Shown here: piece by piece, positions 48,492 to 49,893 of the stretch
Position numbering within the stretch: position 1 is the first letter of the stretch
Layout: the number at the start of each line of letters is the position of its first letter
NCBI GenBank assembly: GCA_016788565.1
Contig: JAEUSP010000011.1
Location: 62,001-126,000, forward strand
Source: Chlorobiota bacterium
Lineage (GTDB): Bacteria > Bacteroidota > Ignavibacteria > OLB7
Direction of reading: 5' to 3'
Length of the DNA: 64,000 nt
Position numbers and translations under genes: made by a program
The notes under the pieces: model-generated
Seen by the model: the letters and a program-made list of their open reading frames with translations, nothing else
Told to the model about the DNA's origin: nothing
The model's database searches: none

Positions 48492-48644
48492 TTTTGAGTG
48501 AACAGAAGAGCCATCAGCTTTTGCGGGTTGCTCACGGAATCAGCAACACAACCTCTTGCAAACTAGCTCAGAGCAGAGGTGTATTGTTGCGGGAATTGTT
48601 TGCTGGCCACCGGCCCAAACAGATGTCTCACAAGCATTGAACGC

Positions 48645-49193
48645 ATGTACATTGGACTGAAAACAGACCACCTAAACAAACGCTGGACAACGCAACGCCA
48701 ACCAATGTGGTGTTGGGCGGCCAGCATTCAGATGGTTCTTCAGATGCACGGGGTTGACATTAGCCAGGAGAAGATTGTTCACCGTGCGTTCGGAAGCGAC
48801 CGGTGGGGCAATCTGCCAAACAAACCCGGGGGGCTTGACGCGATGACCTCCAGCCTCAATTATCAAGGGACTGACCGCACAGGGCGCAAATTCCGCGTCA
48901 CCTCCATGCTGATTCCGGGCGCGCCATCGTCGGCAACGCTAATCCGCGAGCTATCGAACGGCAACCCGATTTTGTTCTCCTACAAAAGCCGTCCAAACAT
49001 GAACCACGCAGTGGTGTGCACAGCGGTGAAAGTTGTTCCGGGATCGAACCCGAAGCAGATTGAATCCATTGTGGTTCGTGACCCGTGGCCGTCGGAGAAG
49101 CATATTCGCCACAAGGGTCGGCTTGAATACAACGCATGGCCATTGGTCCAGAAGGCCACAGCGCACTGGATCACCCGCGTTGAATTCTTGTAG
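48645..49193 (+). CDS. Papain-like cysteine protease (C39/C70-like)
   Basis: 182 residues from ATG 48645. The opening TTQRQPMWCWAASIQMVLQM has the Gln-x5-Cys-Trp-Ala pattern of C39/C70 (AvrRpt2-like) papain-fold proteases: Gln-17, Cys-23, His-121 (NMNHAVVCTA) and Asp-146 (VVRDPWPS) would form the active site. There is no signal peptide, so it acts inside the cell or is secreted by another route. It sits alone between the tRNA pair and the tRNA-Ser/GIY-YIG locus and may belong to an acquired island. The target is unknown; a toxin or effector role is one possibility. Confidence 0.8.
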   Translation: MYIGLKTDHLNKRWTTQRQPMWCWAASIQMVLQMHGVDISQEKIVHRAFGSDRWGNLPNKPGGLDAMTSSLNYQGTDRTGRKFRVTSMLIPGAPSSATLIRELSNGNPILFSYKSRPNMNHAVVCTAVKVVPGSNPKQIESIVVRDPWPSEKHIRHKGRLEYNAWPLVQKATAHWITRVEFL

Positions 49194-49306: not shown

Positions 49307-49359
49307 GGAGAGGTGGCCGAGTGGCTGAAGGCATCCCGATAGCTATCGGGACGTAGGTG
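49307..49359 (+). pseudogene. Truncated tRNA-Ser, 5' part, with palindrome in place of the anticodon arm
   Basis: The first 27 bases (GGAGAGGTGGCCGAGTGGC, TGAAGGCA) are identical to the intact tRNA-Ser 89 bp downstream. The anticodon arm is replaced by the perfect 18-bp palindrome TCCCGATAGCTATCGGGA, and the copy ends after the 5' half of the variable arm (CGTAGGTG). There is no T arm or 3' acceptor strand, so it cannot be a functional tRNA. Confidence 0.9.
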
Positions 49360-49395
49360 AGCGAGGCGCGTCTTGACTAGTACAATTTAGTTTTT

Positions 49396-49484
49396 GGAGA
49401 GGTGGCCGAGTGGCTGAAGGCAACGGTTTGCTAAACCGTCGTAGGTGTCAAAACCTACCGCGAGTTCGAATCTCGCCCTCTCCG
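49396..49484 (+). tRNA. tRNA-Ser (anticodon GCU)
   Basis: All arms of a long-variable-arm serine tRNA are present: acceptor GGAGAGG/CCTCTCC, D stem GCC/GGC, anticodon arm ACGGT TTGCTAA ACCGT, variable stem GTAGGT/ACCTAC, T arm GCGAG TTCGAAT CTCGC, discriminator G at 49484. CCA is not encoded. It lies between two broken copies of itself. Confidence 0.96.
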
Positions 49485-49490
49485 CAAACA

Positions 49491-49528
49491 AAGCCTGCTC
49501 GTATATTTATGACGAGCAGGCTTTTCTG
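49491..49528 (+). terminator. Hairpin terminator between tRNA-Ser and the GIY-YIG gene
   Basis: AAGCCTGCTCGT (49491-49502) and ACGAGCAGGCTT (49512-49523) pair perfectly over 12 bp with a 9-nt loop, followed by TTCTGTTT. The ATG of the nuclease gene follows at 49532, so the nuclease can be transcribed from the tRNA promoter only by read-through. Confidence 0.85.
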
Positions 49529-49531
49529 TTT

Positions 49532-49801
49532 ATGGGGCAATACTTCGTCTATATCATCCAAAGCCTCTCAAATGGGCGGTTCTATATCGGGCAGACTCAC
49601 GACGTTCTTGCTCGGCTCCAACGTCATAATGCTGGCGGATGCACTGCCACACGAAACAAAGGACCCTGGGTGCTTCGCGCCGTCAGGCAGTTCCACTCCC
49701 GTGCTGAAGCTATTGCTGAAGAACGTCGGCTCAAAGCAACGAAAAGCTCACTCTACCTCCTTCACTATATCCAGCAATTTCCTCCAACTGAACTCTCCTA
49801 A
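49532..49801 (+). CDS. Small stand-alone GIY-YIG nuclease (UPF0213/YhbQ-like)
   Basis: 89 residues from ATG 49532, a single GIY-YIG domain: the VYI and YIG motifs at 6-8 and 18-20 (YFVYIIQSLSNGRFYIGQTH), catalytic Arg-28 (LARLQRHN) and Glu-63/64 (AIAEERRLKATK). The frame stays open upstream through the hairpin and into the tRNA-Ser gene as far as a GTG at 49445, but that part is the translated tRNA. It starts 4 nt after the terminator U-run, with no Shine-Dalgarno site. Homing endonucleases and UvrC share the domain. Small GIY-YIG genes beside tRNA genes are, as I recall, common in Bacteroidota. See the findings for its possible role. Confidence 0.9.
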   Translation: MGQYFVYIIQSLSNGRFYIGQTHDVLARLQRHNAGGCTATRNKGPWVLRAVRQFHSRAEAIAEERRLKATKSSLYLLHYIQQFPPTELS

Positions 49802-49820
49802 CCTCTCTCTCCTAAACTCT

Positions 49821-49893
49821 GCTGATGGCACCCCGATCGCTATCGGGGCGTAGGTGTCAAAACCTACCGCGAGTTCGAATCTCGCCCTCTCCG
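49821..49893 (+). pseudogene. Truncated tRNA-Ser, 3' part, with near-identical palindrome
   Basis: From GCTGATGGCA it carries the palindrome CCCCGATCGCTATCGGGG in place of the anticodon arm, then the complete variable arm, T arm and 3' acceptor strand of tRNA-Ser (…CGCCCTCTCCG, 49893), identical to the intact gene. The 5' acceptor strand and D arm are lost. Its first 36 bp (49821-49856) match 49324-49359 with four changes, so the two relics share a direct repeat. Confidence 0.9.

Follow-up and report, generated by a model that had tools for sequence, protein, structure and literature searches.

In the Allomyces-type hybrid genes of fungal mitochondria, an inserted nuclease gene brings a replacement tail for its host gene, and the old tail remains. 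In phage T6, SegB cleaves within tRNA genes, also at its own locus, and is required for the tandem duplication of a unit composed of tRNA-Tyr and segB (PMC13096335). The tandem repeats involve microhomology between the 5' end of the tRNA and the 3' end of the gene, and the motif reported for SegB is RAWTSGAAC (PMC13096335). Here we analysed a tRNA-Ser locus with a small GIY-YIG nuclease gene in a 64,000-nucleotide stretch of a Chlorobiota bacterium genome; this whole stretch is referred to as the window. On our best reading, SegB is the closest counterpart of the locus, which by analogy would be a bacterial, single-domain version with putative cutting and homing activities. We consider it probable, with moderate confidence, that the locus belongs to a family of minimal selfish cassettes that is widespread in bacterial chromosomes and in which the nuclease cuts a tRNA or tmRNA gene and homes into it. 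This tRNA-targeting selfish family is apparently widespread in the phylum of the window and apparently undescribed; the open-access literature, in which the work on phage SegB did surface, yielded no earlier report of such chromosomal cassettes.

The tRNA-Ser locus and its nuclease

The first-pass annotation had proposed a 5' tRNA-Ser fragment followed by an intact tRNA-Ser(GCU), a hairpin, a GIY-YIG gene and a 3' tRNA-Ser fragment, and inspection of the sequence together with ARAGORN, Rfam and Pfam located all five exactly where it had placed them (Table 1). The direct repeat that it had described around 461 bp was also borne out to the base, and these 461 bp consist of the intact tRNA, the hairpin and the nuclease gene. 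A tRNA-Ser search of the whole genome found one intact copy, the two relics and one 74% match at another locus; thus, the direct repeat is not a product of chance. A group I intron with a homing endonuclease was rejected, given the absence of an intron RNA core and an Rfam scan of the window that returned tRNAs only.

Table 1 Features of the tRNA-Ser locus, with positions numbered along the window
Feature	Position	Strand	Remarks
5' tRNA-Ser relic	49307..49359	+	nt 1-27, palindrome, nt 45-52; also in same-genus G001 (L075)
36-bp direct repeat	left 49324..49359, right 49821-49856	+ (left)	4 mismatches, compared by eye
18-bp perfect palindrome TCCCGATAGCTATCGGGA	49334..49351	.	exact place of the 17-nt anticodon stem-loop in the 5' relic; identical in G001
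Intact tRNA-Ser(GCU)	49396..49485	+	ARAGORN, Rfam; no second close match of full length in the genome
Terminator-like hairpin between tRNA and nuclease gene	49490..49524	+	read from sequence; corresponding hairpin in G001
89-aa single-domain GIY-YIG nuclease gene	49532..49801	+	Pfam PF01541; UPF0213/SLX1 by profile and fold; dN/dS 0.07 against G001 (dS near saturation)
3' tRNA-Ser relic	49821..49893	+	D-loop remnant, palindrome, nt 45-91; absent from G001
Palindrome CCCCGATCGCTATCGGGG, one mismatch	49831..49848	.	in place of the anticodon stem-loop in the 3' relic

The tRNA fragments are real, but the earlier description of them as plain fragments had missed a replacement. Each relic carries a palindrome exactly where the intact tRNA has its 17-nt anticodon stem-loop ACGGTTTGCTAAACCGT. 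The 5' relic is more than a decayed copy, as its two tRNA segments are joined directly to the palindrome. With zero mismatches allowed, the 16-bp core of the palindrome occurs at two sites in the 4.58-Mb genome, both within the relics. The idea that the palindrome might be a REP present here in high copy was therefore rejected; palindromes are dispersed in some relatives. A promoter-like stretch upstream of the 5' relic is conserved between the window's genome (G000) and G001, whereas the spacer 3' of the relic is not.

G001, a genome of the same genus (record JADZEY010000117, deposited as 'Armatimonadetes bacterium SJ842'), carries the 5' relic, the intact tRNA, the hairpin and a nuclease of 88% identity, without the 3' relic. 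Comparison of the two nuclease genes gave a dN of 0.075 and a dS of 1.06, the latter near saturation, and the low ratio indicates that the nuclease has been kept as a protein under purifying selection. Empty sites with one unbroken tRNA-Ser, which had been suggested at first pass as something to look for, were found in two genomes of the same family, G002 and G004, both without a nuclease match. Their loci are ordered tRNA-Val, tRNA-Met, tRNA-Ser, and a relative of the window's cation-transporter gene lies close by. In the window, a cysteine-protease-like ORF (48579-49193; Pfam Peptidase_C39_2 / Peptidase_C70) separates tRNA-Met from tRNA-Ser; it has the same position in G001, and the two tRNA genes are adjacent in G002 and G004.

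The nuclease matches its Pfam family with an E value of 3e-13 (50.4 bits versus a cut-off of 22.6). Y18, G20, R28, H32 and E64 are invariant among 12 diverse members, and the Tyr, Arg and Glu residues of the GIY-YIG signature are all present. A profile search against the PDB ranked UPF0213 first and SLX1 next. The AlphaFold2 model (pLDDT 88, three-sequence alignment) best matches UPF0213 (1zg2) and SLX1 (4xlg), and more weakly the catalytic domain of I-TevI. SLX1 is a cutter of branched DNA. Neither Pfam nor the model revealed a domain beyond the catalytic fold in the 89-aa protein, such as a separate C-terminal DNA-binding domain, and NCBIfam and PADLOC gave weak, uninformative matches only. 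Among phages, plasmids and IMG/VR viral contigs, no close relative of the protein was found.

tRNA-linked nuclease genes in the class and phylum

A protein search of 60 relatives from the class, after reading of the loci, yielded 141 distinct small GIY-YIG units; the window's protein served as the query, which favours relatives of that protein, and the genomes, one per species, include many draft MAGs. An intact tRNA lies on the same strand within 400 bp upstream of 75 of the 141 units (opposite strand: 1) and within 400 bp downstream of 25 (opposite strand: 0). Altogether 94 units have at least one intact same-strand tRNA within 400 bp, and 111 lie beside an intact tRNA or a relic. The linkage expected by chance is about 0.5%, assuming 45 tRNAs per 3.5 Mb (P about 1e-178). 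The tRNAs involved represent 16 amino-acid kinds, plus tmRNA with one nuclease clade. Among 73 units of tRNA followed by nuclease, 55 have a partial 3' copy of their own tRNA downstream and 31 a 5' copy upstream; the mirror order, from relic through nuclease to intact tRNA, is also common. In a phylum-wide search, 73 of 118 genomes had matches, and 13 of 16 loci fetched from outside the class had a nearby tRNA. A large and mostly unstudied set of small GIY-YIG genes thereby gains a concrete phylum-wide habitat, namely tRNA and tmRNA genes.

Tandem arrays of the form tRNA 3' part, nuclease, tRNA middle and palindrome reach up to eight copies (L290). Many tRNA pseudogene fragments, as well as tandem tRNA-nuclease arrays, are naturally explained by cassettes of this kind. 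The tmRNA genes (ssrA) are followed directly by the GIY-YIG gene in L085 (twice repeated), L124 and L136. In some loci the nuclease gene abuts or overlaps a tRNA (L083 near 1024-1035; L225 near 2750-2765); the overlaps take the form of a possible TTG start right at the tRNA 3' end or of a stop codon within the next tRNA. The window's genome carries a second tRNA-linked GIY-YIG gene, 387 bp behind tRNA-Gly(CCC) and with no visible relic (L004, at G000:C80:39007); the corresponding locus in G001 is L094.

Relics without the nuclease, which the first-pass annotation had named as evidence against a cassette, do occur at a few loci, whereas the nuclease is mostly linked to tRNA genes or relics. They comprise L190 (Thr, two 5' relics), L192, L202 and L209 (Pro), and are compatible with decay after invasion. 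At L190, the tRNA-Thr is accompanied by the two 5' relics in tandem, with a period of about 103 bp and a palindrome in the anticodon arm. For a within-genus empty site of tRNA-Pro in genus g15, the flanks proved too diverged for alignment, and one nuclease-free relic turned up. In L215, L218, L219 and L220, tRNA-Pro 5' halves ending in the anticodon loop lie away from the tRNA gene, beside a repeated ggggtgttactgacactt; they are probably leftovers of integrated elements.

The nuclease tree has low resolution (87 columns), and labels were tested on it with one row per genus and anticodon and 1000 shuffles. Anticodon labels required 34 changes, compared with a shuffle mean of 58.5 and a minimum of 53 in 1000, whereas host-family labels required 52 changes against 52.4 in shuffles. 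The tree thus follows tRNA type rather than host family. Target-specific homing genes would be expected to give such a pattern, and so would old paralogues, each specific to its target, that had moved from lineage to lineage; the tree alone is compatible with transfer as well as with ancient paralogy plus loss, and does not separate them. As a control, 29 tRNA-Asp loci were read, and relics were present at 7 of 8 loci with a nuclease versus 3 of 21 without (Fisher p=5e-4).

These data bear on the simplest rival, in which tRNA-Ser underwent ordinary tandem duplication, decay set in later and the nuclease gene came to lie between the copies by chance. Such a history would account for relic pieces that match the local tRNA exactly in many units, and arrays are explicable by unequal crossing-over. 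However, the layout is repeated in many genera, at tmRNA and at tRNAs of 16 kinds, far beyond the chance linkage given above; moreover, relics are rare at nuclease-free tRNA loci, and exact swaps of an arm for a palindrome differ from decay. As a general explanation, chance tandem duplication is refuted by the linkage, the relic counts, the tree and the Asp control, and for the window's locus we regard it as extremely improbable. The preference of the first-pass annotation for a tRNA-targeting cassette over this rival is strongly supported by dozens of genomes, the range of tRNA kinds and tmRNA, the empty sites and the tree.

Palindromes in place of tRNA arms

In the units of class relatives, a palindrome usually interrupts, or takes the place of, one arm of the additional tRNA copy. 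Of 84 inserts extracted from relics, 71 have a stem of at least 5 bp, and 58 beat 95% of shuffles. An exact swap of the 17-nt anticodon stem-loop was seen in 14 relics, which cover Ala, Gln, Ile, Lys, Pro and Val in six host families, and likewise in the two relics of the window. In 34 of 49 units, the relic blocks match the local tRNA with 100% identity, which gives no sign of a half from a foreign donor.

The anticodon arm, proposed at first pass as the target, is indeed the altered site in the window and in most Ala, Gln, Ile, Lys, Pro, Val and Gly units, but it is not the only one. The tRNA-Asp units of five families have lost the same T-arm octamer (CGAGTTCG or CGGGTTCG) to the replacement, and those of a sixth family a decamer that includes it. 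The replaced segment is the D-loop hexamer 13-18 in one tRNA-Met(CAU) family, and several Pro, Ser and Gly units have a double hairpin within the T loop. Since the same sites recur, the altered positions are reproducible for each tRNA type across families. By our own reading, the motif reported for SegB is the complement of the T-loop consensus, which belongs to one of the arms altered in the cassettes. The exact arm replacement leaves a footprint by which the enzyme's cut site can be tested, and it is relevant to the origin of bacterial palindromic repeats.

Small GIY-YIG genes without a tRNA were also found: L002 (G000:C80:58800) and L001 (G000:C83) in the window's genome, L144, L155, L156, L162 and L166, and L227 and L229 in Planctomycetes. 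The related tRNA-less genes mostly have REP-like palindromes in their flanks (e.g. GTCATTCCCGCGAAAGCGGGAATCCAG), several as inverted pairs, and this clade is a possible partner of REP-like repeats. These flanks open a rival reading in which the enzyme handles the hairpins themselves. In this reading, a structure-selective nuclease of the SLX1/UPF0213 type would cut at the bases of hairpins or cruciforms, and hairpin-bounded units would move by cutting and rejoining, the bounds being a tRNA arm and a palindrome or two inverted REP-like palindromes; tRNA arms would serve as the most conserved hairpins of the genome. This reading, which we consider possible though on the unlikely side, fits the precise exchange of one complete stem-loop for another, the T loops with nested palindromes, the proximity of UPF0213 and SLX1 by profile and fold, and the flanks of the tRNA-less genes. 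In addition, hairpins with a stem of at least 6 number 1.5-1.65 per flank against 0.33-0.48 in shuffles. Against it, the correspondence between nuclease tree and tRNA type argues for some sequence or locus specificity, and palindromes are also scattered at sites distant from GIY-YIG genes. The broader claim, that a very small structure-selective GIY-YIG nuclease both excises and exchanges DNA hairpins, swaps tRNA arms for palindromes and moves hairpin-bounded units, and thus defines a new class of mobile system, is tentative and slightly more doubtful still. If hairpin exchange were true, a single GIY-YIG machinery, analogous to REP/RAYT but without an HUH enzyme, would generate both the tRNA cassettes and the families of REP-like palindromes.

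A domesticated role at the RNA level was also considered, in which the relics and palindromes would form part of a structured transcript that regulates expression of the tRNA or the nuclease, or the nuclease would cut tRNA rather than DNA. The conserved promoter-like stretch upstream of the 5' relic, the palindrome pairing kept despite sequence variation, and the start and stop codons that can overlap tRNA all suit such a role. Nevertheless, the patchy presence, the empty sites and the degenerate and tandem copies look selfish, and the closest folds are DNA nucleases; we judge this role improbable.

Proposed cycle and comparison with known systems

For the favoured selfish cassette, we propose a putative cycle. 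Initially, the nuclease would break the cognate tRNA gene at one arm, in the window type the anticodon arm. Repair by recombination off a cassette-bearing copy, with the tRNA pieces as homology, would then insert the nuclease gene and duplicate the tRNA. One tRNA copy would stay intact and functional, and the arm of the other would carry the palindrome, which may mark the repaired cut. With a palindrome in its arm, the second copy would be dead as a tRNA and the target gone. Finally, the short tRNA repeats would allow unequal crossing-over, yielding tandem arrays and partial loss. In an equivalent geometry, a circle of 3' part, nuclease, 5' part and palindrome, inserted by crossover to the left or right of the arm, would produce both observed arrangements. 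Within this scheme, the architecture, the empty sites, the link to tRNA type, the recurrent exact arm replacement, purifying selection, the arrays and the relic-only loci are observed.

We infer the cutting, the homing, the order of events and the escape of the intact copy, and the last is the point hardest to reconcile with a classical homing cycle. Immunity through a recoded intact tRNA was looked for in Asp and Ser between occupied and empty loci, and no recoding was seen. The tRNA-Asp at some occupied loci (L230, L231) is letter-identical to that at some empty ones (L232, L233), and the tRNA-Ser anticodon arm is the same in occupied and empty genomes. The relics lack the arm, yet the intact tRNA equals that of the empty site (Asp), so destruction of the target would not protect the surviving copy. 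Consequently, the simple model of the first-pass annotation, a nuclease that cuts the anticodon arm, is left without self-protection. Further points against a homing cycle are the lack of an extra DNA-binding domain, the match of relics to the local tRNA, and the tRNA-less GIY-YIG genes with REP-like palindromes.

The cassettes resemble tRNA-integrating islands and phages with tyrosine integrases in having an intact tRNA at one side and a partial copy at the other. However, the arm of the displaced copy is a palindrome and the breakpoints lie at several arms; no integrase was found in the 461-bp insert, where the GIY-YIG ORF is the only one with a known domain. With REP/RAYT they share palindromes and a small DNA-processing gene, and some related GIY-YIG genes lie between palindromes in inverted orientation. 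Here, the partner enzyme is GIY-YIG instead of a Y1 (HUH) transposase and the palindromes lie inside tRNA relics; the many-copy dispersal of REP/RAYT is not seen in this genome, with its two sites, although palindromes are dispersed in some relatives. UPF0213 and SLX1 have the same fold as the cassette nuclease and are its nearest solved sequences. SLX1 is a longer, eukaryotic DNA-repair enzyme, and we know of no tRNA cassette among UPF0213 members. Compared with Allomyces-type elements, the cassettes hit tRNA or tmRNA genes, carry palindromes in the displaced copy and are bacterial.

The likeness to SegB of phages T4/T6 lies in a GIY-YIG gene among tRNA genes and in tandem repeats of tRNA plus nuclease. 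Unlike SegB, the cassettes are chromosomal in bacteria, encode 89 aa in a single domain without the separate C-terminal DNA-binding domain of the SegB type, and have tRNA arms replaced by palindromes. Their nuclease lineages are each tied to one tRNA kind, whereas SegB showed no isotype preference. Two features of SegB-type free-standing homing endonucleases are nevertheless found here: an empty matching locus, and a nuclease lineage that tracks the target gene rather than the host.
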